DNA of 27,950 bases from a virus (IMGVR_UViG_3300032050_000645:1-27950); one strand, 5' to 3'. Positions 2,049 to 27,497 are shown, counted from the stretch's first letter. Made by a program: numbers and translations. Notes: generated by a model from the letters alone, not told the origin.

Positions 2049-2057
2049 CTATATATC
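2049..2057 (-). promoter_or_regulatory. Putative late promoter GATATATAG
   Basis: Minus-strand GATATATAG just past the TAG stop of the glycosyltransferase gene (shared base) and 15 nt before the ATG at 2033. Same nine-base motif as at 3850, 8152, 21598, 24124 and 27489. Confidence 0.65.
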
Positions 2058-3274
2058 TACCTCTTTTTTCTATTTTTCTTCGATCCTCCGTGTGCAGGAA
2101 AAGAAGGCTTTAAAGTTTTTTTCTGAGGGCTTATAATACCAGTAGCATGAGTTATCGGAAAGTATTGCTCATTGTTTAATACTCTTTGCATAGCTTCTTG
2201 TGGTAAATAATCTGGACCTAGTTCAAGAAGTTGTTGTCTCATCATCCAATAGCATCTAGAGCCTTCTTCTATCCTATTAGTATAAAAACATGAAAGAGAA
2301 TGTAATTCTAACATTTCAAAGTCATACAATGCAGTATCTAAGAAAAGAACTCTATGAGGATAAGGATTATTTTTGTTGTATTTTAATCCGTACAAAGAGA
2401 ATACGTACGCATTTTCCCAGTCATTGAGTCTATGGTACATCTGAATTAAATTCTTAATAGCTTCTCCTCTTGCAGGGTCGGACGAATTTGCTTCTTGGTA
2501 TAAAATAGTACACTCATTCTTACTTTTACCGATAATTTCAGATAATTTTGCAACCATTAATTTAGATATGAAAGTTTCTTCATAAAAACCTTCTGTCATT
2601 TCAGCTCTTTTCTTGTACCATTCTATAGATGTCGGGTATTCTTGTGCATCTCTGTAAGATTGTGCTGTGTAAAATACCCATCTAGGATCATTAGTTTTTT
2701 CAGCATGTGCTTGTAATATTTTAGCATGACCTAGGTATTTCTCTATGATATTTCCCCAAGAACTACCTTCAGCTCTAACTACTACGCTTAAACCTTTTGC
2801 TAGACCACCGATAGTCTCTTCTTTTGACGATAACAACTCATGAATAGGACCTTCCCAGTAGAAATTCATACCTGTTTTCCAGATATTTTTTCTAGTGTAA
2901 TTTACTTTTCCGTAAATAGTTTCAATGGATATTGAATGAAACTCTTGCTTCAACATTTCTTCTTTATTGAAAGAGCTGTTAATGATAAGCTCTTCATCGG
3001 CATCTATCCACATTCCATAATCTACATGTTTTTCTATTTCATTCAATGATTGATTTCTAGCATAAGAAAAATCATCTATCCAGTCTATTTGTAAAAGTTT
3101 ACCAGGTATACCCTTCTCTTCAAAAAACTTCTGTATTATTTCTTGCGTACCATCTGTTGAGCCAGTGTCTGCAATAACCCAATAATCAATTATTGGGACT
3201 ACTGAATTTAGTAATCTAAGAATGACATGAGATTCATTCTTAACTATCATGCTTAACCCTAAAGTTTTACTCAT
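2057..3274 (-). CDS. Family 2 glycosyltransferase with TPR-like C-terminal half
   Basis: Residues (from ATG 3274) 4-100 form a GT-A nucleotide-sugar transferase domain: LGLSMIVKNES (5-15), VIADTGSTDGT (33-43), FSYARN (69-74) and the metal-binding DADEE (91-95). This is the GT2 subgroup that carries helical repeats. Residues about 170-360 are helical and TPR-like (for example DPRWVFYTAQSYRD). The C-terminus is basic (KKNRKKR). I prefer the internal ATG giving MSKTL over an upstream one ten codons earlier because the family begins right at the first beta-strand. A terminator lies upstream at 3332-3361, so it needs its own promoter, not identified. It sits next to virion genes; it may glycosylate virion proteins, DNA or host surface sugars. 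Target unknown. Confidence 0.88.
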   Translation of the reverse strand: MSKTLGLSMIVKNESHVILRLLNSVVPIIDYWVIADTGSTDGTQEIIQKFFEEKGIPGKLLQIDWIDDFSYARNQSLNEIEKHVDYGMWIDADEELIINSSFNKEEMLKQEFHSISIETIYGKVNYTRKNIWKTGMNFYWEGPIHELLSSKEETIGGLAKGLSVVVRAEGSSWGNIIEKYLGHAKILQAHAEKTNDPRWVFYTAQSYRDAQEYPTSIEWYKKRAEMTEGFYEETFISKLMVAKLSEIIGKSKNECTILYQEANSSDPARGEAIKNLIQMYHRLNDWENAYVFSLYGLKYNKNNPYPHRVLFLDTALYDFEMLELHSLSCFYTNRIEEGSRCYWMMRQQLLELGPDYLPQEAMQRVLNNEQYFPITHATGIISPQKKTLKPSFPAHGGSKKNRKKR

Positions 3275-3331
3275 TTTTATGTGTTTATAAGCTAATAGCA
3301 CCAAAACTGATAAGTTCTAGTTTTTGCATAA

Positions 3332-3361
3332 AAAAAGGATGCTTTTAAAAGCATCCTTTTT
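3332..3361 (-). terminator. Intrinsic terminator after the UVR-motif gene
   Basis: A perfect palindrome with 15-base arms, minus strand AAAAAGGATGCTTTT then AAAAGCATCCTTTTT, followed by more T. It folds as an 11-bp stem with a four-base loop and starts four bases after the stop at 3366. The symmetrical A/T flanks would also let it work on the plus strand. Confidence 0.88.
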
Positions 3362-3365
3362 GATG

Positions 3366-3806
3366 TTATTTTTTCCTTTCTTTTATCTTATCTCTAAGCT
3401 TAGCCGCTTCTTCGTATCTTTCATTCTTGATAGCATCCTCTAATTTATTTTCTAGGATTTGAACGGCGTCATTTTCTCCGTTATCTATTACGAAAGTCTC
3501 TTCTAATGAAAATATAGCTTCTAACCTTGCTGACGATAGTCCTTCTCTTGAAGCTCTTTCTTCATCTGTCCAAAAAATCAACCAATTCCCATAATCTAAA
3601 CTTTTAGTGTTTTTACTAATAGCGAATTTTAATAAAGCTCTCAGTTCCTCTTTAAGTTCAGCTATAGTTGGAAATCTCTCTGTTATATGGCCATCTTTTT
3701 CTTCGAATTGCCATTTAATTTTAAAGACTTGATGAAAGTATTTTATTCTGTTCCAATTGATAGATTTAACTACTTCCTGGATCATCTTCTCATAGTTAGC
3801 TTTCAT
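3366..3806 (-). CDS. UVR-motif protein, 146 aa
   Basis: The C-terminus (residues about 116-145: LENKLEDAIKNERYEEAAKL then RDKIKE) is a clear UVR motif, the helical hairpin by which UvrB contacts UvrC and which is also found in ClpC and McsA-type proteins. The N-terminal 110 residues are helical and not recognised. The frame is open for 28 codons upstream of the ATG chosen here, but those codons are unusually Lys/Arg/Tyr-rich and contain the GATATATAG motif at 3850-3858; starting at MKANYEKM (3806) puts the ATG 43 nt after it, behind an A-rich leader. It is likely a monocistronic late gene ended by the terminator at 3332. Role unknown: a UVR motif here more likely means protein-protein contact than excision repair. 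Confidence 0.75.
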   Translation of the reverse strand: MKANYEKMIQEVVKSINWNRIKYFHQVFKIKWQFEEKDGHITERFPTIAELKEELRALLKFAISKNTKSLDYGNWLIFWTDEERASREGLSSARLEAIFSLEETFVIDNGENDAVQILENKLEDAIKNERYEEAAKLRDKIKERKK

Positions 3807-3849
3807 GATTTCAAGTTTTTTTTGTTTTTTGAAGCGTCCTCTGTTCTTT

Positions 3850-3858
3850 CTATATATC
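3850..3858 (-). promoter_or_regulatory. Putative late promoter GATATATAG
   Basis: Minus-strand GATATATAG in the gap between the stop at 3894 and the ATG at 3806, followed by a purine-rich leader. Its position argues against an upstream start for the UVR-motif gene. Confidence 0.65.
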
Positions 3859-3893
3859 TTGAAATTAATTAGTTCAAGATAAAAAAACACTTT

Positions 3894-4427
3894 TTAGAAA
3901 ACTTGATAAGGTCTAAACGCTAATCTGTTTCCAAAAAGCCTAAGTACTCCTGTGCCTGAAGTTTGCTCGATAAAACGTGGAACTATTTCATAAGTAACAC
4001 CTTCTATAAAGTCTGAAACGTCCATAGTAACATAACCTGAATAATTTAATCCACCTGACACGATAGATATTGCTGATAATGAGCCACCTGAAGCTGTGCA
4101 AGATAAGACTGCTCCAGATCCATAGTTGTCAATTAAAGTAATAGGAACAGGCCCATTTGAATATCCTGAACCTGCTGATGCGATCTCTGCAGTAGTTATT
4201 ACACCTTTAGAATTAGTAGCTATTCTTATTCTACCTCCAGCGCCATCACCGCCTATTTCTGCTTTAGTAGAACTGTAAGGAGTGATTTTAACGTCACCAT
4301 TTCCACTTGAACCTATACATGTAAATGAAAGTATAGGACAAATGTTATCAGCGGCTGTGTAGTCTGTTGCAGAAGCGCCTTTTGCTACATCTATTGGAAC
4401 TATCTGAGTTGCAGTTATATTTGCCAT
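3894..4427 (-). CDS. Virion structural protein with Gly-Tyr beta-repeats, 177 aa
   Basis: Residues about 69-134 contain two copies of a beta-strand repeat of the type ITTAEIASAGSGYS...PITLI...GSGAVLSC and LSAISIVSGGLNYSG. Such GSGY-type repeats are common in phage and bacterial surface fibres and decoration proteins. Composition is rich in Gly, Ser, Thr, Ala and poor in charge, as expected for a structural protein. The C-terminal 40 residues (FIEGVTYEIVPRFIEQTSG...FRPYQVF) form a separate small domain, perhaps the particle anchor. ATG start, 19 nt after the propeller gene's stop, so probably cotranscribed with it. It likely decorates the head or tail or forms part of a fibre; the exact location is not visible. 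Confidence 0.75.
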   Translation of the reverse strand: MANITATQIVPIDVAKGASATDYTAADNICPILSFTCIGSSGNGDVKITPYSSTKAEIGGDGAGGRIRIATNSKGVITTAEIASAGSGYSNGPVPITLIDNYGSGAVLSCTASGGSLSAISIVSGGLNYSGYVTMDVSDFIEGVTYEIVPRFIEQTSGTGVLRLFGNRLAFRPYQVF

Positions 4428-4446
4428 CTTTTTTTTGTTTATTTAA

Positions 4447-6423: not shown

Positions 6424-6438
6424 TGTATAGAATTTTTT

Positions 6439-7203: not shown

Positions 7204-7230
7204 AACATAAATTAATTTTAATCAAGAAAC

Positions 7231-7551: not shown

Positions 7552-7576
7552 ATAGTGTTTTTCCTGCTTATAAAAC

Positions 7577-7610: not shown

Positions 7611-7617
7611 ATCTTTC

Positions 7618-8130
7618 TTAGTTATTGTTTTCGTTATTGTTCTCGATAGAAGAATCTGGTTCAATACCTTCACGTCTAGAAGCTACTACGAATTCCTGAT
7701 TTCTGATCTTATCATTATCAGCTTTAACTCTTTCCATACCTCCTGTCATAGCTTTCAGTACACGGATATAGTCATCTACTGTTTCGAAAGTAGTAGTGTT
7801 AGTATTTTTTCCGTTACCTTCAACTTTGCTCAAGTAGTAATAAATAGCTTCAATTGGCATAGCACCAATGTAAAGTTTTCCAGTCTTTAGAGCATCTTTA
7901 AGCTCTTTCTCAATCTCAACTACTCCTAGACACTCTGTAAATTTCCAAGTCGCATCATTTTTGTTAAAATCATTAAGTAATTTAATGTCTGATTTGTTTA
8001 AATCTATTAAATACTTTTTGTTAGCTAACTCTTCTCTAAGAGCGTTTAATTCATTTTCCGCTTTGATTAGCGATTCTCTTTGAAAATCATTTAATGATTT
8101 TTCGTTGTTTGCTGTCGCAGGTGTTTCCAT
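7618..8130 (-). CDS. Hypothetical late protein, 170 aa, Asn-rich tail
   Basis: Unknown function. Residues about 12-55 form a predicted coiled coil (FQRESLIKAENELNALREEL). A mixed domain follows (residues 60-115, with WKFTECLGVVEIEKELKDAL and IGAMPIEAIYYYLSKVEG), then a helical segment and an Asn-rich disordered end (SSIENNNENNN). It has its own GATATATAG promoter (8152-8160) and a strong terminator, so it forms a one-gene late transcript. That arrangement suggests high expression, as for an abundant virion or scaffold-like protein, but no sequence match supports a specific role. Confidence 0.8.
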   Translation of the reverse strand: METPATANNEKSLNDFQRESLIKAENELNALREELANKKYLIDLNKSDIKLLNDFNKNDATWKFTECLGVVEIEKELKDALKTGKLYIGAMPIEAIYYYLSKVEGNGKNTNTTTFETVDDYIRVLKAMTGGMERVKADNDKIRNQEFVVASRREGIEPDSSIENNNENNN

Positions 8131-8151: not shown

Positions 8152-8160
8152 CTATATATC
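8152..8160 (-). promoter_or_regulatory. Putative late promoter GATATATAG
   Basis: Minus-strand GATATATAG includes the last codons and TAG stop of the nuclease gene (GAT ATA TAG) and lies 21 nt before the ATG at 8130. The leader AAACATAAAAACAACATAAA is A-rich with no Shine-Dalgarno. Confidence 0.65.
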
Positions 8161-9587: not shown

Positions 9588-9777
9588 TTTCTATTTCATT
9601 TTTTTTGGGATGATTCTTTAAAAAGTCTTTAAATATTTCTAACAGTTGTTCTTTAGATTCCCATTTGAAATCATTTTCTAGCAACCTTTTCCAACCACAG
9701 GCTGATATCCAGCAATCACATACTAGACATTCTCCATTATGGTCTAAATTACAAGGGGTATGTGAATCAATTCTCAT
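9574..9777 (-). CDS. Cys-rich (zinc-binding-like) mini-protein, 67 aa
   Basis: Six cysteines and histidines are packed in the first 27 residues: C9, H13, C17, C20, C22 and C27 (CNLDHNGECLVCDCWISAC). This spacing suggests a zinc-binding knuckle. The rest (about 30-58) is an amphipathic helix with a Lys-rich end. Its ATG overlaps the sigma-factor stop (ATGA), so the two are translationally coupled and the protein may regulate the sigma factor, as anti-sigma or co-activator proteins often do when encoded beside it. That role is inference from position only. Confidence 0.72.
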   Translation of the reverse strand: MRIDSHTPCNLDHNGECLVCDCWISACGWKRLLENDFKWESKEQLLEIFKDFLKNHPKKNEIENGKN

Positions 9778-10694
9778 TTAAAGAATTTTCCTTCTCTGAT
9801 TTCTTCAACGTAATCTTTTCCTTCTCTTGTATATTCTATCACTAGAGCTTTTGATCTACCATAACATGGGTCTCCTCCTAATCTATTTGAAGCTTTTACT
9901 TCAAATCTTTCAGAATAAATTTTAGAAGCTTTTTCAGTCACATCTATCCAATCCATACCAGAACCATACTTGGCTTTAGTTATTACCAGATCGATAACAG
10001 TAGGTTTTTCTTGTTTTTTAGATTTTTTCTTATCATCATCCAATAATTGAAGTATAGTAACACCTAAAATGTTGATAGTTTTACTACAACCTCCTTTAAT
10101 CTTTTTCTCTATCCAGAGATTTTTGATTATTTTTTTTGCTGAATGTATTCTACTACGAATAGTGTTAATTTTCAAGCCTCTCTTCTCTGCGATATCCTTG
10201 TATTTCATTTTTTCTACAATTCTATCTTCAATAATTTCTTTGTAATGAGCAGGAAGATTTTTTATCTCTTGTAAAACTTCAGAGTATAATGAATCAGACT
10301 GGATAGTTTCTTCATCACCGAAAAATTCATAATCATCTTCCATTTTCCAATCATCGTCATTGACAGCTTTAATTGGAATTTTATTGTCTACCATACTATC
10401 TAGAGAGTATAGAGAATTCTGCCTTCTGATTTCCATAAGACATTCATTTTGGCAAATTTTGTATATCCATGTACTAAAATTCCATTGAGAATCGTACTTG
10501 TCCGCATAAACATACGCCTTCGATAAAGTGATGGCTAATATTTCATCGACAACCTCTGGGTCTTGATGGTATTTTTGGATGAATTTTTTGAGCCCAGGCT
10601 TCAGTCTATTATGAAGCAGGGTAAAAGATTTTTCACAACGGCTATCTACGAAATCAAGCGCAAGCTGTTGCAACGATTTTTGTTGTTGTATCAT
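9774..10694 (-). CDS. ECF-type sigma factor with C-terminal DUF3395-like domain
   Basis: From ATG 10694 (306 aa). Region 2 spans about 17-93 and ends with FSTWIYKICQNECLMEIRR (73-91), typical of ECF/sigma-70 region 2. An acidic linker follows (113-130). Region 4 spans 138-192, with IKNLPAHYKEII and KYKDIAEKRGLKINTIRSRI (164-183), a helix-turn-helix. There is no region 3. After a Lys-rich linker, residues about 233-303 form an extra domain: ITKAKYGSGMDWIDVTEKA, then VKASNRLGGDPCYGRSKAL and VIEYTREG. That pattern (YG..WxDVT, VxxSN.L.GDP..G..K.L.V.Y) looks like the DnaJC11/DUF3395 type C-terminal domain. It would direct host RNA polymerase, most likely to the GATATATAG promoters. Starting upstream would overlap the 76-aa gene, so ATG 10694 is preferred. 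Confidence 0.87.
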   Translation of the reverse strand: MIQQQKSLQQLALDFVDSRCEKSFTLLHNRLKPGLKKFIQKYHQDPEVVDEILAITLSKAYVYADKYDSQWNFSTWIYKICQNECLMEIRRQNSLYSLDSMVDNKIPIKAVNDDDWKMEDDYEFFGDEETIQSDSLYSEVLQEIKNLPAHYKEIIEDRIVEKMKYKDIAEKRGLKINTIRSRIHSAKKIIKNLWIEKKIKGGCSKTINILGVTILQLLDDDKKKSKKQEKPTVIDLVITKAKYGSGMDWIDVTEKASKIYSERFEVKASNRLGGDPCYGRSKALVIEYTREGKDYVEEIREGKFFK

Positions 10695-10725
10695 ATTCTG
10701 TCTGTCTTTTCTTTTTCTGTCTAAT

Positions 10726-10956
10726 TTAAGATAACAAAATCTTAAATAAAAAAGAAACATCGTACAGAAAAAATTCTTTTAAAGAATTTCGATGACCGCA
10801 TAAGAAATAAAGATTAAAATCGATATTAAACGTAGTGTTTGTAGCTACACTCAAGATGACAGAATCTTTAAAGATTTCTGCTCTATCGTTAGCACATATA
10901 GGTTTTTTAATTAATTGCCCGTTCACTTCTAAACTTTCCTTGCTGCTGTCTTCCAT
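10726..10956 (-). CDS. Hypothetical protein, 76 aa
   Basis: Short frame between the 66-aa gene and the sigma factor. The first 40 residues are polar and plausible (MEDSSKESLEVNGQLIKKP); the last 25 are hydrophobic and aromatic (EFFLYDVSFLFKILLS), possibly one membrane-associating helix. It has an ATG and a reasonable gap to both neighbours. No family recognised. It could be a real small gene or a chance frame; codon choice resembles neighbouring genes. Confidence 0.5.
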   Translation of the reverse strand: MEDSSKESLEVNGQLIKKPICANDRAEIFKDSVILSVATNTTFNIDFNLYFLCGHRNSLKEFFLYDVSFLFKILLS

Positions 10957-11222: not shown

Positions 11223-14200
11223 TTACGGAGTTGGATCAACTGATATTTTTTTCTTACTGTTTGCAAATGTATTTAATGCATCTACAAATGCAGCTGATAT
11301 CTGACTCGTCGTTAATTGTTGTTGAACAGGTGGTTGGTGAATAGTTTGTTGATGATGGACTACTTTATTTTGAGTTTTATCAGATTTCTCATCAGTCTTT
11401 TTCTCCTCAGCCCCTCCTCCATTCGATACAACTACTTGTGGTGATGGTGCCATTTCTTTAACTAGTTTCTTTAAAGCTTCCACAAGGCCATCAAATGCTT
11501 CACCAATGGATTCTTTAATCTGTTCTCCTAGTGTATCTGGTGACTTCGAAAGTATCGCCAGTGACTTCATCAATGAATCAGTTACCTTTAAATTTTCAAC
11601 ATTAAAAGTATTAACGTGCTCTTTTAAAGTACCCATAGATTTAGCAAAAAGATCAAATCTGTAATGGCTTTGATTTTTAACGAGATTTGAAAATGAAGTT
11701 TCAAATCTAGCAAACTTATCTAAGTTAGTAGAAAATTTCTCGAATGCTGGAGTAAACAAGTTGAAAGATTTAGAAGTCTTAGATAAACTATCTGCAAATT
11801 CTCCTAATCCTTTACCAGTTTTAGACAATTTTTCTAAAACATTTGCAAATTTATCTAGAGACTTAGTTTTTTCATCGTCTATCTGTAAATCTTTTGTGTC
11901 AGTGATAAATTGTTTTAGAGCAGGACCTAGATCTCCTATAACACTTTTCTTTTTCTTGTTATCTTCTACCATTAATTTTTGGAAAGTTTCGGCTATCTTT
12001 CCTATAGTTTGAGCTAAAGGCTTAGCTTTATCTGCAATCTCATTAGCTTTTTCTATTTGATCGATATCAAGACCTTGAAAAACTTTAGGTATCATAGTTA
12101 ATACGTTTTTGATCGTAGTTTCGATCTTAACCATATCAAACGGACGATATTCTTTTATTTTACCTTTTTCATTGTATATTGGGATTCCTCTTTCTATTTC
12201 TCCAAATGCTAAGATACCTCCTGCGATATCACTTAATACTTTACCAATTCCTGACACGGCTTGTATACCTTCTTTGACGCCATTTTGAGATACAAATCCA
12301 TCTGCTCCGTACTTAGCTCCTATATTAGAAAATATTTTAGCTAAAGACATTAATAAACCTTCTTTTCCGGAAACTTTACCATTAACACTCATATCTCCTA
12401 CTAAGATATTCTGTATTTTTGGTATAACATCTAATAAATTAACTGATTGATAAATTAATTTAGATGGATTTTTAGGGTCTGGAACTTGTACAGGAAAAGT
12501 TTCAAAGTTTGCAAATTTGATAACAGCACCAACCACAGATTCAAGCTCTTTACCTAAACCTGATATAGCATCTATACCTTTTCTAACAGGACTCTCTGAG
12601 CCTGAAGTAAACCATCCACCTTCAGTGCCTCCATATCTTTCTCCAATTTTAGCGAACATATCCGCAAGAGATAATATAAGACCTCCGCCGGCTATGCTAC
12701 CATCACCTAATAATGTTTTTTGCATTTTAGGGATAACTTCACTTAAATTGACAGATTTATAAACTAATTTAGAAGGATCATTAGCGTCCGGTATCTGAAT
12801 AGGAAATGATTCAAAGTTAGCAAACTTGACTATAGCTCCAACTAGGGATTGTAATTCATTTCCTAATCCAGAGATTGCATCTATACCTTTTCTAACTGGG
12901 CTAGGGTCATCTGCAGTAAACCATCCACCTTCTTTTCCTCCGTATCTGCGTCCTATTTCAGCAAATACATCAGCTAAAGCAAATATTAAACCTCCACTTC
13001 CAACTTCTCCACCACCTAATAAAGTATCCTTTATCTTAGGAATAACATCCCAAAGGTTTACAGATTGATAAACTAATTTAGAAGGATCTTTAGGATCTGG
13101 TACTTTAATAGGAAATGCATCAAAATTAGCGAATGCAACTATACTACCTGCAATTTCTTGTAAAACTCCACCTAGACCACTTATAGCATCTATACCTTTT
13201 CTAACAGGGCTAGGATCATTAGGTTTAAACCAGCCACCATCGGAACCTCCGTATAAATTACCGATATCCGCAAAGACGTTAGCCAACGCGGTCAACATCG
13301 GCGGCAAGAAAGTTTGAATATTAGGGATAACTTGGCCGAATATATCTACTGTACTATATATGAGCTTAGAAGGATCTTTAGGATTTGGTGCAAGTACAGG
13401 AAAAGCTGTAAAATCTGAAAAAGCAACTATACCGCCTGCAATCTGTTTCAAAGCTTCACCTAATCCAGAAACGGTTCTCATACCTCTAGATACTGGATCT
13501 GCACCTACAATACCAGCTAAGAAACCTAAAACTCCTCCAGAATACTTATTACCTATATTAGCAAAAGCTTCCGCCATTACTGGAATTAATCCTTTTTCAG
13601 AAAACAAATCTTCTACAAACCTTGACATGTCAGGTATCTTTGCCAAAGCTTCTGCTGCCATGTATAAACCTCCACCTAAAACTAATAAAGAGGCTCCCAT
13701 GCCTATGGAGCTAGAAATACCTAGTAAAGTCCAAGGTTCAGTTAAGAATGTCCAACCTACTCCTGCCATAGCAGTAGCTATTGATTGCAGAACTCCTAAT
13801 CCTTTGATAGTTTCTCCATCTTTTCCCTCTATTAAAAGACCTTGAGAATTTAATACCGATAAAGCTCCTCCGAATGCTAGTATGCCTGCTCCTGCGAATG
13901 CCAATGAAGTGCCCATGAGAGCTAAAGAAGCTGTACCTAATGATATAGGTACAATTAAAAGACCCATTTCAGATATAGCCCATCCAATTCCTGTAATAAT
14001 GCCTGAAAATTTATCTCCTAGTGTATCTACATCTGAACCTACAGCCATTGTAGCTAATTTAACAGCTCCAGCAAAAACAGCAAGTCCTATTGAATATACT
14101 AATAAAGTAGTCCCAATCAAAGTCATTGCAACTGAACCTAGTATGACAAGAGGTGACATTAGACCTATAGTACTATAAGCTAAACCTAATCCTAAAATAA

Positions 14201-16100: not shown

Positions 16101-16105
16101 AACTC

Positions 16106-16123
16106 TAGAAAATCATTTTTCTA
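16106..16123 (-). promoter_or_regulatory. Small hairpin with ATG in loop before the tape measure
   Basis: Minus strand TAGAAAA-ATGA-TTTTCTA, a 7-bp stem with a four-base loop. The ATG begins a three-codon frame (ATG ATT TTC TAG) lying out of frame with the tape measure. The 5' arm is part of the late-promoter motif, so only read-through mRNA would contain it. Confidence 0.45.
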
Positions 16124-16129
16124 TATATT
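16121..16129 (-). promoter_or_regulatory. Putative late promoter AATATATAG
   Basis: One base different from GATATATAG, between the stop of the 95-aa chaperone (16141) and the tape-measure start. Twenty nt before the TTG at 16100. Confidence 0.55.
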
Positions 16130-16140: not shown

Positions 16141-16428
16141 TTAAAAATTCATGTTAGGAAACGAAGGCATGTTTGGCATACTTGGCATGTTCGGTGACAT
16201 GCTTTTCATTTGCCTTTGCATTTGGCTCATATTGAAACTGTTGTTTCCGCCATTTCCTTCCTTTTTCTTTCTATCTTCTTCTTCTTTTTCAGCTAGCATT
16301 TTTAAACTATCCACCAATTCTTCTAATTCATAGAAGGCCATCTTGTCCATTTCAGATGGCTGTAAATGCGAATACTTAAGAAGTGCTGCTCTAAGATCAT
16401 AAAAGTTTTGAAGAGATATCTGAAACAA
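16141..16428 (-). CDS. Second tail assembly chaperone (tape-measure chaperone), 95 aa
   Basis: Its place between a gp26-like gene and the tape measure, and its small helical build (LRAALLKYSHLQPSEMDKMAFY, ELEELVDSLK, EKEEEDRKK), fit the T partner of a G/T tail chaperone pair. The C-terminal 30 residues are Met/Pro-rich (MSQMQRQMKSM then PNMPSMPNMPSFPNMNF). No ATG precedes the conserved part: the frame reaches back to 16473 without one, and the best start is TTG at 16428, which overlaps the gp26-like gene by 32 bp. It may instead be made as a fusion by ribosomal frameshifting from that gene. The first ATG (16350) would lose the first helix. Confidence 0.7.
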   Translation of the reverse strand: MFQISLQNFYDLRAALLKYSHLQPSEMDKMAFYELEELVDSLKMLAEKEEEDRKKKEGNGGNNSFNMSQMQRQMKSMSPNMPSMPNMPSFPNMNF

Positions 16429-17362
16429 GGAAAAGACTTTTGACTCCGCCTCGAAAGTTAAGGGGTGCCTCTACCTCCGTGCCGCACCCTGAACATTCAT
16501 TTTTTAAATTTGCATTAACTGTCTTTTGCATTTTATCAACAAACCAGTCAACAACTGAAATTTTGTCTAATGACCATGCATAAGAATCTTGAAGAGTTTT
16601 ATGATAAGAAGCTGAATTTAACAGTCTCCAGTCAGGGAAAACAAACGGCGCCCATCTTAAAAAGGCTTTGTCGTAATCTTCTTTAGTCTGAGCTTTTTCT
16701 CTTAAGTATGTTTTAATAAAAGACATCGTACCTAAAGTAGGTAAATAAAGTTTTATTTCTTCTCCGTTTTGTAGTCTCAAATGGAAACAACGTTCTTCTT
16801 CAGAAAATCTAGGTTGTAATTCATCAGCTGGAGTATAATAAGATAACATTTCTTTTACGATAGGACGTGTATCTTGTTTACCACAATTTTTACAGTCAAA
16901 AGAAACATTTAATGCATTCTCTCCTTTTTTGAATGTATATTCTCTAATAGCAAAAACGATGAAAAATCTATCAATCTCTTTAAGATCTTTAAAATTTCCC
17001 ATTTGTCTAGGAAATCTTATTTTACAACATTTATCTACTATTCTATTTAAAGCATCATCTAAGCTTAATAAATCCTCTTCATCTATAGTAGACCAGTGAC
17101 GAATCTCTGCAGCCATAGCAGCTCTAATAGTTATTTCGGTTCCGTCTGGGTAAAAAATACCTTGAGAAGGCAGCGAATCTAGTTTAACTCTAATCCAACC
17201 GATATCTTCTATAACTGTTTTCTCTTCTTCGAAAAGATGAACTTTTCCAAGACTTTTTCTTTCAGATTCTTCAGATTCTTCAGGAATTACACTTAGATTT
17301 TTTTCTCTCTCTTCGATTAAGCGTCTAGCCTCATCTTGAAAGTCATTCTGATTTTGATCCAT
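16397..17362 (-). CDS. T4 gp26-like baseplate hub assembly/tail chaperone protein, 321 aa
   Basis: Residues about 60-140 carry the T4_baseplate (gp26) pattern: VKLDSLPSQGIFYPDGTEI (59-77), then IRAAMAAEIRHWSTIDEED and DALNRIVDKCCKIRF, LKEIDRFFIVFAIREYTF. Two CxxC pairs, C157/C160 (CKNCGKQ) and C290/C293 (CSGCGTE), make a zinc ribbon split by a 130-residue helical segment. The acidic N-terminal 50 residues are disordered. T4 gp26 is about 208 aa, so this one is longer. It has its own GATAAATAA motif 15 nt before the ATG and a terminator separates it from the tube gene. It overlaps the next frame by 32 bp, as G/T tail chaperone genes do. Confidence 0.82.
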   Translation of the reverse strand: MDQNQNDFQDEARRLIEEREKNLSVIPEESEESERKSLGKVHLFEEEKTVIEDIGWIRVKLDSLPSQGIFYPDGTEITIRAAMAAEIRHWSTIDEEDLLSLDDALNRIVDKCCKIRFPRQMGNFKDLKEIDRFFIVFAIREYTFKKGENALNVSFDCKNCGKQDTRPIVKEMLSYYTPADELQPRFSEEERCFHLRLQNGEEIKLYLPTLGTMSFIKTYLREKAQTKEDYDKAFLRWAPFVFPDWRLLNSASYHKTLQDSYAWSLDKISVVDWFVDKMQKTVNANLKNECSGCGTEVEAPLNFRGGVKSLFLVSDISSKLL

Positions 17363-17377: not shown

Positions 17378-17386
17378 TTATTTATC
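17378..17386 (-). promoter_or_regulatory. Putative late promoter GATAAATAA
   Basis: Minus strand, 15 nt before the ATG at 17362. Close to T4 late TATAAATA and shared with the tail-tube gene (18091-18099). Confidence 0.6.
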
Positions 17387-17500: not shown

Positions 17501-18067
17501 TTATGCAGTAGTATCGTTCCAGTAATCTGCTCTGAACGTGAAACCTGATATTGTATACTTATCCGTTGATGCGTAGTCAAATTCGATAGCGTTGATATTA
17601 GTTGTTGGCCATACTACATCAAAAGTGTATCTTCTGAACACATCACCTACACGTGTATAAGCTTCTAAAACCATAGGTCCACCAGCGTAATCTTTCTTCA
17701 AACTCATAGCACCTGTCAATGGGTCGAATATTCTGTTACACCAAGCTTTTAAACCTTTATACATATACATAGAGTTGGCATCGTCTAAGTTGACCTCAAA
17801 ATCTATCGTGATGTCCACAAAAGTTTGATCTAGCTTAGAGTTTGCGTAAGATCTTGTCCACCCTTTGTAAGTTTGTTGCACGCCTGCAGGAGGAGTTTTA
17901 TCTACATCAAGACCACCAACTTTGATAACTTGTTCCATTAACAATGGAGTAGTCCAGTTTGGAAGACCTTTAGGAGGTTGAATAGTAATCTCAAACAAGT
18001 TAAGGTAAACCGGTTCGTACTTCTCCATAGAAGCCTTTGAATTTTTGTAATGTGGTAACTTTGCCAT
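17501..18067 (-). CDS. Tail tube protein (T4 gp19-like)
   Basis: 188 aa, the length of T4 gp19 (about 163) plus a little. It shows the family course: N-terminal NLFEITIQPPKGL (23-35), then LLMEQVIKVGGLDVDKTP, TYKGWTRSYANSKLDQTFVD, ITIDFEVNLDD, MYKGLKAWCNRIFDPLTGAM, and a closing VVWPTTNINAIEFDYAS...YTISGFTFRADYW. These are typical for phage T4 gp19/T4-like tube proteins. It polymerises as hexameric rings inside the sheath. It follows the sheath gene by 57 nt with its own GATAAATAA motif and is ended by a strong terminator, as expected for a major structural protein. Confidence 0.93.
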   Translation of the reverse strand: MAKLPHYKNSKASMEKYEPVYLNLFEITIQPPKGLPNWTTPLLMEQVIKVGGLDVDKTPPAGVQQTYKGWTRSYANSKLDQTFVDITIDFEVNLDDANSMYMYKGLKAWCNRIFDPLTGAMSLKKDYAGGPMVLEAYTRVGDVFRRYTFDVVWPTTNINAIEFDYASTDKYTISGFTFRADYWNDTTA

Positions 18068-18090: not shown

Positions 18091-18099
18091 TTATTTATC
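18091..18099 (-). promoter_or_regulatory. Putative late promoter GATAAATAA
   Basis: Minus strand, 23 nt before the tube ATG at 18067, between the sheath stop (18125) and the tube gene. Followed by AAAAGATAAAAAAC, an A-rich leader. Confidence 0.6.
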
Positions 18100-18124: not shown

Positions 18125-21100
18125 TTATGCTATAGTAAATCCTCCTGACGCAATTCCTCCAGTTTTAAGAACAGTTACTCTGTTGATAAATTTCTGTGCT
18201 CCTCTTGCAGGTTCTATACCAATGTCTAGGATAGCGAAATTTTGATCGATAATATCTGGAGTGTTATTAGATTCATCCATGATAGTAGCAAAATCGTAAA
18301 TTCCTCCACCTGATCTTACTCCATCTAAGTAAGCATCTACAATTGATTTAATTTGCAATCTTGTAGAAGCATCGTTGAATTCGAATAAGAAATTAGCTAA
18401 TACATCTTCTACAGCTTCTTCTACAGTGATTAACAAATCTCTAACGTGTAAATTATTGAATGCTGAAGGAGTTTTCTGGTATGCAGATTGATTACCATGA
18501 ATCATGAATCCAATTCCTCTTCTGAATACTATCGGGTTCCAACCCATCGGCTCTAAATAATCTCTATCTTTATCAGAGAAATCATATTCTAAACCTACAA
18601 GTTTAGGATTTGAAAGAACACCTCGTCTTGGACCTGCTACAATTGAATAAGGTTGTCCGTTGATAAATTTACGGATAAAATTATTTGAAACATCTGCAGC
18701 CGGTGGAATACTGAAATTCTTGTTGTTTTCTCTGATCACTAAGAATGGTGCAAAGAAACCTGAGAATTTTGCTCCGTTATCTTCATCAGGTAAAGAATAC
18801 GTGAATGAAGGTCCAAGTGTTAAGTTACCTCCGTCTGCAATGTATTGAGTCTTAAGTAACGGTTTTGGATCAGTTTGAGATGGTAATTCAGTAAATCTAG
18901 GATCAGTGCTTGCCACAAATTGCGAAATTGATGGAGCATTCATGATAGCTAAACATTTCTGTCTTTTCTTAGCAAGTTTAGTTACAATATTTTTTGGATA
19001 AGATTGCGTATTCAATCCACCGTTGAAAGTATCTATAATGTATCTAAAAGCTATAATATGTCTACTTGATAAAGCTTCAGGTAAGTTTGAATTAGCTTCA
19101 TCTAACATACCTAAGATTTTTGCTAGTTGAGAATTTGAACCGTTAGGTAAATGATAGCTAGTAATTTTAAATCCTGGTAAGTAAGTAGGTTGATATCCAG
19201 GTGTAGCTTGGTCAACAGATTTATATCTAATGATATCAGATCCATAATTAGCTAGCCTCTGGTTAACATTTATTTCATAGTATCCACTATAAGTACCTGA
19301 AGAAATTTTCTTCTTACTTATAACTCTAGTTAAAATATAATCAGATATATTTCCTGAATTTAATGGATCAGCTACTAAATATTGTCCAACTTGTATTTTA
19401 CTTTCATCTATAGCTGATACATAACAAGTAGTTCTTGTAGTGTTAAAACCTGTTGCAGTAACAGTAGATGCATAATCTCCAACTAAAGAGTAAATTCTTA
19501 AATCAGAACCTGTAGAAGATCCTGAAGAATCTTTAATATCAGCAAATGTCCAGCTTCCAGTGTATCCAATAGTTAAAGAAGGATCGATGTAAGCTTTGAT
19601 AGTAACAGTTTTAACTGCATCAGTGTCAAATCCAAAAGATGCTGATAAATAAAGAGGAGTAGGTCCTGCTATATAAGCTATATCAGAATCAGATAAAATA
19701 CCGGTATTGAAGTCTACATAAGCTGGAGAGAATTCATATCCTGTATAATAGCTTTGTTGTCCTGATACTACTACATGTTTAAATACGTCAGGTTGTTTAA
19801 CAACTTTGAATGTTGTAATAGTACTATTGGTATCTATTACATCAAATAAAGATCCTTCATTACCTGAAGTAGCCTCCCAGTAAACTTTAAAGAATGTGTT
19901 AATGTATCCAATATTAGTAGCTCCTTCGAATTCAGCATTTGTTGTATCTACTGTAATCTCCGTATCAGATCCTGATGCTGCAACTGATACTACTCTAAAG
20001 TAATATCTTAAACCAGTATTTTCTGCAAGAATCCAGTTTCCAGGATTAAGATCTCCAAGAGCTCCTGCACCACTAACTACTATAGTCGAACTAGTTTTTG
20101 AAATTACCTGAGCATTTTTTCCGGCAGTAGTCCCTTCAGTCTGTTTATCAGGATGTGAAATTGCTAACTTTAATCTAATATCAGATCCTACTGTAACTTC
20201 ATTGACAGAAGTTATCGTAGCTAATTTTGTACCTGAAACACCTTCAAATGCTAAAGATGATCCAGATTTAAGAGAAGATAATTCGGCGTATTGTGTTGCG
20301 CTGAAAAATTCTTTTCTTAATACTAAGATATTATTGAATTTACCTTCATTACCTGTACCATAGTAACTTGTAAGATAAGCAGCCTTAGATGGTACGTTTC
20401 TATAGTAACCATTAGTAGCAGGCAAATAACCAGCTCCTGCTGGTAAATTTGTTGTAGCAGCAGTACCTAAATCGTATTGATAAGTATTATTAGTTAGAGT
20501 ATGAGTTGATACTCCAGTAAAATCTTCATATTCTTTAGAAGTAAAGTTATAAGAAAGGAAATTAATAGAACTATTAGTTGAATTAATTAATGAGTGACCT
20601 ATCATATCTACTCTACCCGATATTGCAGTACTAGTAGCATCATAATCATTTAATGCATCTCTATTAAGAGCACAGAAAAGACCTGTAGTAGCTATAGCTG
20701 AGTTTATGATAGTATCTATACTATAGTTTACTCCATTGTTATCTACTAAATCGGGAATGATAGATCCTTGAAAAGATCCAAGTCTTGTAATTTGCGCGTT
20801 GTTCAAGAAATCATTCAATTTAGATTTGATAATTCCTCTAGTATCAAAATACTGTGAAAAGCTAGGATCTGCGCTTAATGTAGAAAAATCTGTCCAGTTT
20901 CCTCCTACTATATCAATACTAACAAAGTAATCAGATATGAAATCGAATTCTTTTATAAATTCTGGAACATTTCCAGGTCCAAACCAATCTCTTGCTGTTA
21001 CATCAAAACCAGGTAAACTTCCCGTCTTTCTAATTATTACGCTGTAAGGTGTTTGCCCCAAGTTTACAAAATTAAATAACTTCCCTTGGTTAGGTGAAGT

Positions 21101-21562
21101 TGAAGAGTTTACGTTAGCAAGAAAATATGAAGTATCAGGAAAGTAGAATCTTTCTTTGTTAAAGAAAGAACTGAATAAAACTGATTCTTCAGTACCATTA
21201 GCTTCAGTAGAACTTAATGAGAAACTTTTATACTTGACATAATCTGCATTAGCTGTTGTAACGTCGTTATTCAAAGGCATTAAGTTCAATGCGAAACATG
21301 GTCCTGTTTCCAAACAAGTGAATAAACTTCTATGGAAAAAAGAACCTTTGTTTTCAAGATCTTTATCTATGTCTCCGAAAATTCTTCTTGCAGTCTTAAC
21401 ATCATTACAGAAAACCGGTGCGTTAATAGGCCCCTTCTTAGAGAAACCTACTACTAATCTTGTTGTCTGAGTATTGATAACAATGCTTTCTGAAGCATCA
21501 AATTCTACAGTATATATACCTGATGCTTTAAATTGGCTCAGATCTAATCTTATTTTTGCCAT
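18125..21562 (-). CDS. Contractile tail sheath protein (T4 gp18-like), 1145 aa
   Basis: The C-terminal part carries the sheath signature: YSIVAGPRRGVL, YLEPMGWNPIVFRRGIGFMI, then NNLHVRDLLITVEEAVEDVL, FLFEFNDASTRLQIKSIVD, AYLDGVRSGGGIYDF and ILDIGIEPARGAQKFINRV. The N-terminus (about 1-110) holds VVGFSKKGPINAPVF and FGDIDK, matching the sheath start. It is far longer than T4 gp18 (659 aa): the middle, about 350-800, is Ser/Thr/Gly-rich with beta-strand repeats (for example ISGAGALGDLNPGNWIL-like) and no similarity I recognise, so insertion domains probably face outward. It has a GATATATAG promoter 35 nt before the ATG, consistent with high late expression. Confidence 0.93.
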   Translation of the reverse strand: MAKIRLDLSQFKASGIYTVEFDASESIVINTQTTRLVVGFSKKGPINAPVFCNDVKTARRIFGDIDKDLENKGSFFHRSLFTCLETGPCFALNLMPLNNDVTTANADYVKYKSFSLSSTEANGTEESVLFSSFFNKERFYFPDTSYFLANVNSSTSPNQGKLFNFVNLGQTPYSVIIRKTGSLPGFDVTARDWFGPGNVPEFIKEFDFISDYFVSIDIVGGNWTDFSTLSADPSFSQYFDTRGIIKSKLNDFLNNAQITRLGSFQGSIIPDLVDNNGVNYSIDTIINSAIATTGLFCALNRDALNDYDATSTAISGRVDMIGHSLINSTNSSINFLSYNFTSKEYEDFTGVSTHTLTNNTYQYDLGTAATTNLPAGAGYLPATNGYYRNVPSKAAYLTSYYGTGNEGKFNNILVLRKEFFSATQYAELSSLKSGSSLAFEGVSGTKLATITSVNEVTVGSDIRLKLAISHPDKQTEGTTAGKNAQVISKTSSTIVVSGAGALGDLNPGNWILAENTGLRYYFRVVSVAASGSDTEITVDTTNAEFEGATNIGYINTFFKVYWEATSGNEGSLFDVIDTNSTITTFKVVKQPDVFKHVVVSGQQSYYTGYEFSPAYVDFNTGILSDSDIAYIAGPTPLYLSASFGFDTDAVKTVTIKAYIDPSLTIGYTGSWTFADIKDSSGSSTGSDLRIYSLVGDYASTVTATGFNTTRTTCYVSAIDESKIQVGQYLVADPLNSGNISDYILTRVISKKKISSGTYSGYYEINVNQRLANYGSDIIRYKSVDQATPGYQPTYLPGFKITSYHLPNGSNSQLAKILGMLDEANSNLPEALSSRHIIAFRYIIDTFNGGLNTQSYPKNIVTKLAKKRQKCLAIMNAPSISQFVASTDPRFTELPSQTDPKPLLKTQYIADGGNLTLGPSFTYSLPDEDNGAKFSGFFAPFLVIRENNKNFSIPPAADVSNNFIRKFINGQPYSIVAGPRRGVLSNPKLVGLEYDFSDKDRDYLEPMGWNPIVFRRGIGFMIHGNQSAYQKTPSAFNNLHVRDLLITVEEAVEDVLANFLFEFNDASTRLQIKSIVDAYLDGVRSGGGIYDFATIMDESNNTPDIIDQNFAILDIGIEPARGAQKFINRVTVLKTGGIASGGFTIA

Positions 21563-21597: not shown

Positions 21598-21606
21598 CTA
21601 TATATC
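21598..21606 (-). promoter_or_regulatory. Putative late promoter GATATATAG
   Basis: Between the terminase stop (21627) and sheath ATG (21562), with a purine-rich 35-nt leader (AAAAGAAAAGAAGAAATAAAA). No -35-like element is obvious. Confidence 0.7.
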
Positions 21607-21626
21607 TTAAACATTTTCATAATTTC

Positions 21627-23429
21627 TCATAGAATATTTTTTAAAAATGAAAAAGTATTATCATCTTTATCGATTTCAGCTTCAGCCAGTCTCTTTTGAA
21701 TAAGATCTTTAGTATCTTCTTCAAGTAAATCGTACATTTCTTCTACTATATCTGAAAATGTATCAGATTGGAACATTGGAACCAAATTCACACATGACAT
21801 TGCTACATCATCATGACCAGATTGAGAAGAATAAGTTCCTTTGTTATTTATACCAAAATCGTTCATTTCTTCAAAAGTTACTTGCTCGTTTAGGATAATT
21901 CTTTTTTCCATTACAAGTTTTCTAAACTCTCTACAAAAGAACATTTTATTATGTTTATGCAGCTTTATGCCTAATGAATAGGTCTTAGTTTTTTCATTAT
22001 GTCTAGTATGTAAAAAGATGTCTTCGTAATACTCTGCATTTTTTGAAATCTTTTCAATAAAATAATCTCCTTTGAAATTGATCTCTAGAGATACTCTTAC
22101 ATTGTCTGGATTGAAAAACTTAAATATCAAAACTTCTGAGATTTTAGAAAGCTCTTCTGCACTAGATTTGTTAGATCTGTACATTCCTACTTGTCTAAGT
22201 CTGAAAAAACTAGCTTCGCTCTCTATTCTATCTCTTCTAAGCTTTCTTATAGCAGCTTTACTCATTTTTTCAACCTTGAAAATGTTTATGACACTGTAAT
22301 CTTTACCAGCTCCATCTGCTATATCTATCGAAAGTACAAACTTATCATCGGTATCAATATCATAAAAACTAAAGTTAGGGTCCCATTTTAAGCTTTTGTA
22401 ATCTAAATCAGAATATTCAAAATCCTGTATCTGATCCCATTTATAGTTTCTAACAATCTTCTTCATAGCTCTCAAAGCATCTCCGCCTAAAAGAAGAGTA
22501 TCTCCTGCTAAGAATTGATTACCATATTCCTGGTTAAAAAGCTCTTCTGAGCCTAAGTTTGCAATTTCTCTGGCTTTCCACTTCTCATCTCTTCCTGGAA
22601 CTTGCCACCAGTCTACTCTTATAGGAGTGTATTCATTTTTCTTTTCTACCGCACCATTATAGATCTCAAAGAATTTATTTCTTCCGTTAGGAGTGCTAGT
22701 AATTATAACTTTTGATATCAGAGAAGCTGCAATAGTAGGATAAACTGAACGATAGAAAGGCTCTATGAAACTGGGTTGAATATGAGCAAACTCATCCATG
22801 TAAGCAAGATGGATGGTAAAACCGATAGCTGCTGTTTTAGTAGTAGCCTGCCCCATTACTCTGCAACCGTTATCGAATTTCATAGTCATAACATTATTTG
22901 TTACGATTCCAGGTTTTAAGAAAAATGGCAATCCTTTGAATACAGATTTTATCTTATCTAAGATTTCTGCTGCAGTAGCACCTTTGTTTGCTAGAACTAT
23001 TACATTTTTATCTACATTGAATAATAGATACCATGTAATAAAAATTGCAGAAGTAACAGTTTTTCCTATCTGTCTAGATGCTAAAAAGACATTAAAACGA
23101 TTATCTTGGAAAGACCTAAGAACATCTTCTTGATAAGGACGAAGAGTAATTTTCTGTATACCGTAATCAGTCATTGCCATACAGTAATTATTAGCAAAAT
23201 ACACTACATCTGCTGCACATCTAGCAATTTCTTGTAATTCAAATTCAGAGTACTCGTAAACAATATCGGCTGCTTTCCAACTAGGATCACCTTCATGGAA
23301 AGGAGTTCCTCCCATTGGAGCATCTCCAGTTTCTTCTATTATTCTAATACATTCAGAAACTCTTTCTGAATTCCATACCCTGTTATGAGAATTATTCGTC
23401 TTTGTTTGTGAGGTCTTCGAAAGGGTCAT
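21627..23429 (-). CDS. Terminase large subunit (T4 gp17-like), 600 aa
   Basis: DNA-packaging motor with ATPase and nuclease domains; T4 gp17 is 610 aa. ATPase: Q-motif-like LRPYQEDVL (96-104), Walker A SRQIGKT (118-124), Walker B LAYMDEFAH (208-216, D212/E213), coupling motif TSTPNGR (244-250). Nuclease (RNase H-like fold): LSIDIADGAGKDYSVI (366-381, D369), VRVSLEI (444-450, E449) and the final acidic GHDDVAMS (538-545, D540/D541). The acidic tail (LLEEDTKDL...) resembles relatives. All catalytic residues appear present. The ATG overlaps the preceding gene by 38 bp, as terminase small and large genes often do. Confidence 0.96.
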   Translation of the reverse strand: MTLSKTSQTKTNNSHNRVWNSERVSECIRIIEETGDAPMGGTPFHEGDPSWKAADIVYEYSEFELQEIARCAADVVYFANNYCMAMTDYGIQKITLRPYQEDVLRSFQDNRFNVFLASRQIGKTVTSAIFITWYLLFNVDKNVIVLANKGATAAEILDKIKSVFKGLPFFLKPGIVTNNVMTMKFDNGCRVMGQATTKTAAIGFTIHLAYMDEFAHIQPSFIEPFYRSVYPTIAASLISKVIITSTPNGRNKFFEIYNGAVEKKNEYTPIRVDWWQVPGRDEKWKAREIANLGSEELFNQEYGNQFLAGDTLLLGGDALRAMKKIVRNYKWDQIQDFEYSDLDYKSLKWDPNFSFYDIDTDDKFVLSIDIADGAGKDYSVINIFKVEKMSKAAIRKLRRDRIESEASFFRLRQVGMYRSNKSSAEELSKISEVLIFKFFNPDNVRVSLEINFKGDYFIEKISKNAEYYEDIFLHTRHNEKTKTYSLGIKLHKHNKMFFCREFRKLVMEKRIILNEQVTFEEMNDFGINNKGTYSSQSGHDDVAMSCVNLVPMFQSDTFSDIVEEMYDLLEEDTKDLIQKRLAEAEIDKDDNTFSFLKNIL

Positions 23430-24048: not shown

Positions 24049-24123
24049 AACCTGTGGTTTTTTCTATGATTTAGCTATTTTGTCTCTATCACATGACACA
24101 ACGCTTAATCAAGCATTATTTTT

Positions 24124-24132
24124 CTATATATC
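24124..24132 (-). promoter_or_regulatory. Putative late promoter GATATATAG
   Basis: Minus strand, in the 88-nt gap upstream of the terminase operon and just past the stop of the LRR-like gene (24137). The 75-nt leader contains a weak hairpin (AATGCTT-GATT-AAGCGTT) and a three-codon frame ATG CTT GAT TAA. Confidence 0.65.
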
Positions 24133-24136
24133 AAAA

Positions 24137-25203: not shown

Positions 25204-25204
25204 A

Positions 25205-27472
25205 TTATCTGGTGTATCCAATATACGGCATTTTAGATGGTGGCAATGCATTGTCTATGATTAATGCTATATGTGCATCTTTCACGATATTCTGATTTAA
25301 GATGATAGTCTGTTTATCAGTTTCAGCTACTCTGTTGAATAGCCTAATATTCGTCAAATCCATAGAAGATGGGCGAAGATAATAATCTATTCCTGAACTA
25401 CGATCTTCTTTGTTTATAGAAACTGTCTTATTTAAAACTAAAACAAGATCTGTTGTAGCTGGTAAATTAGTGACAGAATCCCATTGGATTTTCCAAATAT
25501 TTAGAGTAAGTTGTTTAAAAATGTTACTGAAATTGACAAAAATAGCATACCATTTATTCTTTGCTAGAGAAGGTATTGAGTTAGGTAAACTGAAATAAAA
25601 CTCATCTGAATTCGACAGTACTTTAAAATGTCGTTGGCCATATAATTCTATTTTAATACCTTTATTGTTATCCAATGAGTCTAAGAATACACGTGGTGCA
25701 CTCTTTTGAATTTGTAAATCAACATAATTTTGCCAAGAGCTAAAACTAAATTGAACAAAATCTAAGACATATTGAGGAATCTCTACAGTAACTATTTGCG
25801 AAGAAAGTACTCTTGTAACAGTTCCAAATAACATAAATTCTGAACTAGAAGATCTAGTTATTTCTATATTATCTCTTACAAATAACAAAGCTTTTCTAGA
25901 TAACTGCACTTGAATTTCTCTAGAATGAACGTCAAAGGTAAAAGAGTCTATACTGTTTTTAGGAAAAACACTTTCTTTTATTCTAAACCATGCAGAAAAT
26001 GCTCGATCTTCAGTTGATGGGAAATTTGAAGAGGCTTTATATGCTACAATTTTCTCAGTATAATAATTAGCATCGACTACATCGCATGAAACTAAAGGAG
26101 AATCAACAGACCCAGTATACTCATTTTCATATAAAGAAAATATAGAACCTAATGTGAATATTTGCGAATAACTAAAATTGCTTTCAGCTTGAGAGCTTCC
26201 TGGAGAAAACTTGAAGATACTATATCCTTTTGAATCTTTTCCAAGAAATTTAAACTTCTTGATAGAGAAATAAAATTGAGGATCTGGCTGAGAAGATGAA
26301 GGATCTAACCTAGCAAAATAAGTTTTATCTTTGACCAAGTCTGTAGAAATTTTCACTTTTATTTCTGACGAATCTAAAAGAGATGCCATATTATAATTAA
26401 ATTCGGAAATAACAGTGTGGTAATTTAAAACTTTCTCTTCTTTAACTTCTTGATTACTTGATAAGTAAGATCTTACAGGATCTTCTTTAGTAGTAGCTAC
26501 TTCAAACTGCTGAGGATTAGTAACTTTAATCTCTTCAGCTTTTTGTTCTTCTCCGAAAAGTTTACCTGCACTAACAGTAAAGCTTTCTAAAGTTTCTAAA
26601 GTTTCTGAGTTTTCAACATTAGTTTTTGGTAACCATTTGATTAGTGTCACTTTAAAATAAAGCGGCTCATTCATAAAGTCTCTAAACATGTAAGCGCTAG
26701 AAACTTCATACACCCTATTTGTTCTAGGAAAGTAGATCACGTCTCTTTTCTGAGGTCCAGTTCCGTCACCAAAAATTTTCTGGAAATAATCTTTATCTAC
26801 TTGAACTTCAAATGGCATTTCAAAGTCTACACCAAACGGTCCCATGCTTAATTTATTATCGGGGAACGCATTATCTGGAACTACTATTTTGACACATTGC
26901 CCTTCATCATGTTCAAAAAGAGAATGTTCCATTAAGAAAACATCTTTACTTCTTCCGTAAGGTAGAGCTCTGTAATAAATAGTATCATGCCCAAACATGC
27001 TATTTACCATCAAATTTAGATCCTTATAGAGACGAATAGCTCTATTCATCTTATAAGGTTCCCATAAGAAATTAGATTTATAAGTTACAGGGAATGCGTA
27101 TACTTTATCTTGATTTTCTATTCTAGGAGTTACGTAACCAGCATAAGGATCAGAGTATTTCTGCGTATATACAGGAGCTACTTTTTGAAATGTCACTGGT
27201 CCTCCACTCAGAAGTATGTATCTAAATTGGAACCATACTGCATCATGAGAACCTACAGCTAAAAGATTATCTTCTGTAATCTCTTGGAATTCTGAAAAAG
27301 TTGTACTATCTATAGAATACCTAAATTCTTTTTTCAAGATAGTACCATTTCCGGTATCCTGAAAACACTCTTCTATTCCTGTAATTTTTTCTACATTACA
27401 GTACGCATCTTTATTGGCTAGAACTACGTATTCTCCTGCCGTGTATAAAGTGTAAGTAGAAATACTGCTCAT
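25205..27472 (-). CDS. Virion structural protein, possible neck (gp14-like) with lectin-like C-terminus, 755 aa
   Basis: Position at the head of the T4-like order (neck genes 13-15 precede the terminases) and the segment FGDGTGPQKRDVIYFPRTNR with YEVSS (about 234-259), then RDFMNEPLYFKVTLIKW (264-280), suggest a neck or head-completion protein. Residues about 485-740 look like a LamG/concanavalin-type beta sandwich (AFSAWFRIKES, WYAIFVNFSN, KQLTLNIWKIQW), so a carbohydrate-binding or decoration domain may be fused on. Middle part (300-480) is not recognised. The ATG has a GATATATAG motif 16 nt upstream. Virion role is fairly sure; the specific neck identity is tentative. Confidence 0.65.
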   Translation of the reverse strand: MSSISTYTLYTAGEYVVLANKDAYCNVEKITGIEECFQDTGNGTILKKEFRYSIDSTTFSEFQEITEDNLLAVGSHDAVWFQFRYILLSGGPVTFQKVAPVYTQKYSDPYAGYVTPRIENQDKVYAFPVTYKSNFLWEPYKMNRAIRLYKDLNLMVNSMFGHDTIYYRALPYGRSKDVFLMEHSLFEHDEGQCVKIVVPDNAFPDNKLSMGPFGVDFEMPFEVQVDKDYFQKIFGDGTGPQKRDVIYFPRTNRVYEVSSAYMFRDFMNEPLYFKVTLIKWLPKTNVENSETLETLESFTVSAGKLFGEEQKAEEIKVTNPQQFEVATTKEDPVRSYLSSNQEVKEEKVLNYHTVISEFNYNMASLLDSSEIKVKISTDLVKDKTYFARLDPSSSQPDPQFYFSIKKFKFLGKDSKGYSIFKFSPGSSQAESNFSYSQIFTLGSIFSLYENEYTGSVDSPLVSCDVVDANYYTEKIVAYKASSNFPSTEDRAFSAWFRIKESVFPKNSIDSFTFDVHSREIQVQLSRKALLFVRDNIEITRSSSSEFMLFGTVTRVLSSQIVTVEIPQYVLDFVQFSFSSWQNYVDLQIQKSAPRVFLDSLDNNKGIKIELYGQRHFKVLSNSDEFYFSLPNSIPSLAKNKWYAIFVNFSNIFKQLTLNIWKIQWDSVTNLPATTDLVLVLNKTVSINKEDRSSGIDYYLRPSSMDLTNIRLFNRVAETDKQTIILNQNIVKDAHIALIIDNALPPSKMPYIGYTR

Positions 27473-27488
27473 CTGTTTTTTTCTTTAT

Positions 27489-27497
27489 CTATATATC
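27489..27497 (-). promoter_or_regulatory. Putative late promoter GATATATAG
   Basis: Minus strand, 16 nt before the ATG at 27472, at the head of the whole leftward late block. Leader ATAAAGAAAAAAACAG is purine-rich. Confidence 0.68.

Follow-up and report, generated by a model that had tools for sequence, protein, structure and literature searches.

Gene content of the window

The window analysed here (27,950 bp; a virus record from IMG/VR) is included, with an end-to-end identity of 99.85%, in a longer contig of 50,544 bp (the 50.5 kb window contig). All genes but one of the gene block in the window are on the minus strand. Family searches identified a tail sheath, a tail tube, the large subunit of the terminase, an exonuclease, a glycosyltransferase and a sigma factor, together with weak matches to a baseplate hub and a baseplate wedge, and the rest of the 50.5 kb contig added a head maturation protease and the major head protein. 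The phage, which is uncultured, is of the T4 type, with a contractile tail. Among named phages, its relatives by sheath and terminase include Flavobacterium phage MaF61, Tenacibaculum phage PTm1, the Prevotella Lak phages and several huge metagenomic phages. Given these relatives, the host is probably a member of the Bacteroidota.

A short word precedes genes of the block

The initial annotation had listed nine copies of a repeated word, each 15-75 nt before a gene start, and proposed that they form a late promoter; all nine coordinates were exact, all nine sites are on the minus strand, and the distances were confirmed. The 755-aa first gene of the block (25205-27472) is preceded by GATATATAG at 27489-27497, 16 nt upstream, with a predicted transcription start near 27485. 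The same word at 24124-24132 lies 75 nt before a 218-aa gene that leads the terminase gene (21627-23429), and at 21598-21606 it lies 35 nt before the tail sheath gene (18125-21562), a site that is kept before sheath orthologs. Two genes have GATAAATAA upstream: the tail tube gene (17501-18067), at a distance of 23 nt (18091-18099), where the A at the fifth position is kept before tube orthologs, and a 321-aa gene with a weak baseplate hub match (16397-17362), at a distance of 15 nt (17378-17386). The 1625-aa gene at 11223-16100, designated tape measure in the initial annotation, has AATATATAG at 16121-16129, an A-variant kept in close relatives; this site is 20 nt from a TTG or 65 nt from an ATG, and the ATG at 16055 is the likely start. 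The other GATATATAG sites are found at 8152-8160, 21 nt before a 170-aa gene (7618-8130) and overlapping the 3' end of the exonuclease gene, at 3850-3858, 43 nt before a UvrB/C-motif gene (3366 to the ATG at 3806), and at 2049-2057, 15 nt before a 145-aa gene (1596-2033) and overlapping the stop codon of the glycosyltransferase. The 3850 site falls within the longest mechanical reading of ORF 3366-3890, for which the ATG at 3806 is the likely start.

Counting GATAWATAR on both strands of the window confirmed an excess of the word, with 9 copies against 3.3 expected, a number reached in 0 of 100 shuffles. Position is a stronger fact than this raw count: on the gene strand of the window, all eight copies have a start codon at most 80 nt away, which is true of a fraction of 0.081 of all positions (p = 1.8e-9). 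The statement that no copy lies in a coding region away from a start thus held for the gene strand, but not for the other one, since a chance GATAAATAA is found mid-gene on the non-coding strand (19644-19652, plus strand, within the sheath gene). In the 22.6 kb of the 50.5 kb contig outside the window, six of six gene-strand sites precede starts (p = 8e-7); the two sites on the opposite strand lie mid-gene and not before starts. The upstream regions of the whole window contig contain 14 copies, in comparison to a mean of 0.63 and a maximum of 5 in 1000 dinucleotide shuffles. A control with the reversed pattern is uninformative for GATATATAG, which is the same word when read backwards. The placement of the motif before genes is far above chance.

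The word and its fifth base are conserved before orthologous genes

Among sheath relatives with 56-83% identity, every complete upstream region has the word, with G or A as the first letter. Upstream of the sheath, tube and tape-measure genes, the word is kept, the sequence around it has diverged, and its distance from the start codon shifts. At the tape-measure site, the A at position 1 is kept in three distinct upstream regions besides that of the window, and at the tube site A5 is retained down to about 47% protein identity. When distinct upstream regions with a word were compared, the fifth base was A in 37 of 41 before the tube gene and T in 18 of 19 before the sheath gene; the corresponding p value of 1e-10 assumes independence and, as the sequences are related, is overstated and not a true probability, but with the flanks diverged the retention of these bases argues for selection. 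The fifth base, initially described as variable, does indeed vary; however, it does not vary freely, but is conserved per gene (A for tube, T for sheath).

The T5 form of the sheath and the A5 form of the tube could represent two promoter subclasses that differ in strength, timing or sigma, which would be a refinement of the promoter reading and not an alternative to it. The gene-specific counts, the persistence of each form at about 50% protein identity amid diverged flanks, and the presence of more than one phage sigma in the clade agree with such a division. However, part of the contrast may reflect the kinship of the sequences, the flanks and gene class of A5 and T5 sites showed no difference, and either base is used by T4-type lineages, so we see the division into subclasses as possible but lean against it.

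Gene classes behind the word in larger relatives

In two larger relatives, GATATATA is found just before genes in 46 of 58 cases (G005, 289,651 bp; p about 1e-54) and in 37 of 43 cases (G006, 217,893 bp; p about 7e-49), and the counts were similar under another mask. In the annotated isolate MaF61 the word is GATAAATA, with 15 of 22 copies before genes. The pattern [GA]ATA[ATC]ATA occurs there within 100 nt of 10 of the 14 virion genes, versus 4 of the 31 metabolic or replication genes (p = 2e-4), and GATAAATA alone is found before 4 and none of them, respectively. The large genes directly behind the word in G005 include those for the sheath, portal, head protease, head closure and endolysin. 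Timing was approximated by gene class, and by this measure the word serves genes of the virion and of lysis. Some sites precede genes that are not obviously late, namely the 145-aa and UvrB-motif genes of the window and the gene for RNR alpha in MaF61. In the relative G011, host-type TAnnTTTG boxes show enrichment upstream of genes; they are concentrated at 50-70 kb, which is probably the early region, and the late word is found at 0-30 kb.

Anatomy of the candidate promoter

Alignment of 72 sites from G005 and G006 revealed one conserved block with a mild preference for T just 5' of it; between -60 and -9 the information content is near zero, and there is no -35 element. Counted from the first base of the motif, a purine is found at index 12 in 64 of the 70 leadered sites of these two genomes (91%; A in 48, G in 16; p = 5e-9 versus local composition). 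The identical script applied to T4 as a control placed the purine peak at index 13, which is the documented +1 of T4, where TATAAATA spans -13 to -6 (PMC1524935). We infer from the position of this purine that transcription would start at index 12, the fourth base after the nine-letter word, which refines the 5' end initially placed 5-9 nt downstream. In the window contig the downstream sequence is A-rich, which fits a +1 at index 12 and cannot place it by itself.

The distance to the start codon in G005 and G006 is bimodal: in 24 of 94 sites the ATG lies 3-8 nt after the nine-letter word, and after a gap the main class begins at 14 nt. In 11 sites the A of the ATG coincides exactly with the predicted +1. 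About a quarter of the GATATATA promoters of these two genomes would yield leaderless or near-leaderless mRNAs. None of 25 T4 late sites has an abutting ATG, the shortest spacing there being 13 nt after the eight-letter word. Such spacing does not occur in the window contig either (shortest, 15 nt), so the leaderless class is a feature of the relatives and not of the window. No description of a leaderless late class of the T4 type was found in the portions of the open-access literature that we consulted.

Candidate sigma factors

G005 and G006 encode a 119-aa protein that consists of sigma region 2 only. It can be aligned with T4 gp55, and its matches include cyanophage proteins annotated as late sigma factors (E about 4e-9). 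Homologues of gp55 were also found in MaF61, PAU, Lak, LR756500, other huge phages and very many IMG/VR contigs, and the Tenacibaculum phages, like MaF61 and PAU, have both a gp55 homologue and an ATAnATA word. The gp55-family proteins of the relatives stop after region 2; they do not have the T4-like C-terminal tail, and coupling to the clamp may therefore differ. A sliding clamp is annotated in MaF61. The gp55 homologue of MaF61 is ORF75 (L142:4739-5476), annotated as hypothetical, in which region 2 is split by an insert of ~120 residues.

The co-occurrence of the word with gp55 would place the promoters of the relatives in the gp55-dependent class; the 50.5 kb contig of the window, which is an incomplete genome, gave no gp55 match by BLAST or with a 42-sequence profile (best E 3.6). 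Pfam searches with the genes of this contig upstream of the head protease, a frequent location of gp55 in the relatives, returned UV-repair genes or nothing. Scans of viral contigs for gp55-bearing members of the window clade found none with close window-clade genes.

The sigma factor of the window itself is a phage protein of the ECF type, with regions 2 and 4 and a C-terminal extension of about 100 aa (9774-10760, minus strand). These C-terminal ~100 residues are absent from complete orthologues (about 200-230 aa) and have a weak DnaJ-like C11 C-terminal match. The motif could be a late promoter that is read by this protein instead of gp55: its gene is in the window, inside the late block, and is conserved in the same place in about 40 relatives, and a gp55 was not found in the incomplete window contig. 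However, ECF sigmas use a -35 together with a -10 element, and this promoter type failed as a description of the 72 aligned sites, where the -10-like block is the only conserved part. The same ECF sigma coexists with gp55 in G005 and G006. Furthermore, a search with the ECF sigma of the window named none of MaF61, PAU and the Tenacibaculum phages, all of which combine a gp55 homologue with an ATAnATA word. For these three reasons gp55 is favoured as the reader, and we consider the ECF sigma unlikely in this role.

A probable late promoter of the T4 type

The sites are very probably late promoters of a T4-type myophage, with a gp55-family sigma as the most likely reader, presumably also in the phage of the window. 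According to this model, a single -10-like element, (G/A)ATA(T/A)ATA(R), with no -35, would mark each late promoter. A region-2-only sigma of the gp55 family would most likely recruit the RNA polymerase of the host to this element in late infection, transcription would start at the purine found 12 nt downstream of its first base, and the genes for head, tail, packaging and lysis would be switched on from it. Both terms, promoter and late, are strongly suggested by the comparisons described above. The likeness to T4 late promoters claimed in the initial annotation, namely a lone -10-like element and no -35, held on each point at the level of sequence.

Two other explanations of the word deserve consideration. 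A translation-initiation or RNA-processing element of the leader would account for the usual position of the sites, 15-25 nt upstream of a start codon, and for the A-rich leaders. However, such a signal was rejected because the spacing between word and start codon is variable (3 to 76 nt) and bimodal; many genes in each record do not have the word, and the purine is fixed relative to the motif and not to the AUG. Moreover, at the shortest spacing the word would be upstream of the predicted start of the RNA, so this explanation appears very improbable. The sigma-A promoters of Bacteroidota have TAnnTTTG with a TTG near -33, and the word might be an ordinary host-type -7 box of this kind, given that both are AT-rich elements of the -10 type and that TAnnTTTG boxes precede genes in G011. 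The sequence contradicts this reading: TAnnTTTG is absent from the word, the window contig shows no enrichment of it (4 of 88), and in G011 it is found in another part of the genome than the late word. The host promoters have an unrelated word and lie before different genes, and these phages probably use them for early genes, as in G011; as an explanation of the late word, a host-type box is scarcely credible.

Probable dialects of the T4 late promoter

All 16 words of the form nATAnATA were scored in each lineage. The best word was TATAAATA for T4, GATATATA for the window contig, G005, G006 and LR756500, GATAAATA for MaF61, AATATATA for LR756502 and TATACATA for PAU. PTm1 and MA9V-2 had TATACATA or AATACATA as a weak best word, and Lak had TATAAATA, also weakly. 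Written as positions 1 and 5, the series is T and A in T4, G and T here, G and A in MaF61, A and T in LR756502, and T and C in PAU. Each lineage appears to have its own ATAnATA word, in agreement with the lineage-specific late promoter proposed initially. The GATATATAG/GATAAATAA word is almost certainly a local dialect of the T4 late promoter, whose spelling varies by lineage at two positions.

The T4 late promoter (TATAAATA, used by gp55 with gp33 and gp45) shares with the sites described here a lone -10-like element with the ATA-n-ATA frame and no -35, virion and lysis genes downstream, and a gp55-family sigma, found here in relatives; a purine start at a fixed distance downstream would be a further common feature. 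In GATATATA and GATAAATA the ATA.ATA frame is the same as in T4, and position 1, sometimes also 5, is changed. In contrast to T4, the first base here is G instead of T, the fifth is mostly T, the ninth is a purine and the predicted +1 is one nucleotide nearer. The gp55 of the relatives differs by the missing T4-like tail, and some promoters of the relatives abut the start codon, whereas no T4 site does. Earlier work on the late promoters of other T4-like phages (RB49, KVP40, S-PM2 and Aeh1) reported that the first position varies and that Aeh1 has a late word of its own, CTAAATA (PMC1524935). These phages provide a precedent for a varying first position and for a word peculiar to one phage; however, their hosts are gamma-proteobacteria or cyanobacteria, whereas here position 5 changes too and neighbouring lineages use different combinations of bases at positions 1 and 5. 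In the open-access literature we found no paper with GATATATA as a phage promoter word, and no description of a change of position 5 between lineages or of its gene-specific retention within one lineage.

Beyond the initial annotation, the analysis suggests an ATAnATA word for each lineage, a fifth base conserved by gene, and leaderless-type promoters in two relatives. The joint claim that T4-type phages of Bacteroidota form dialects via positions 1 and 5 only, have functionally distinct A5 tube and T5 sheath forms and possess a leaderless subset has, as a whole, a little less than an even chance of being correct. The proposed reading would extend the late-transcription scheme of T4 to a broad group of large phages, most of them uncultured, with relatives that infect Flavobacterium, Tenacibaculum, Chryseobacterium and Prevotella, and it would provide a marker of their late genes from sequence alone. 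If this natural series of words is compared with an alignment of the gp55 proteins, the question of which of their amino acids recognize promoter positions 1 and 5 can be addressed. Late promoters abutting the start codon would be a natural case of leaderless phage mRNAs, in hosts that probably make little use of Shine-Dalgarno sequences.

Other features of the late genes

Many genes behind the late word in G005 and G006, and at 46300-46815 of the window contig, encode an amphipathic N-terminus, e.g. MKHIKLFEDF or MKNLKTYRQLFES. These N-termini recall the capsid-targeting sequence of the T4 internal proteins. A loose pattern of this kind was not enriched in the late genes of the window contig; in G005 it was found in 34 of 61 late genes versus 74 of 321 others (p = 7e-7), and the difference was weaker in G006. 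In the part of the 50.5 kb contig beyond the window, a gene for a homing/HNH endonuclease of 568 aa (L013:17005-18711), without a late word of its own, is located in the late block directly 3' of the major head protein gene, and a gene for a UvdE endonuclease (L013:11027-11932) lies close to one for a pyrimidine-dimer glycosylase (L013:12138-12713).
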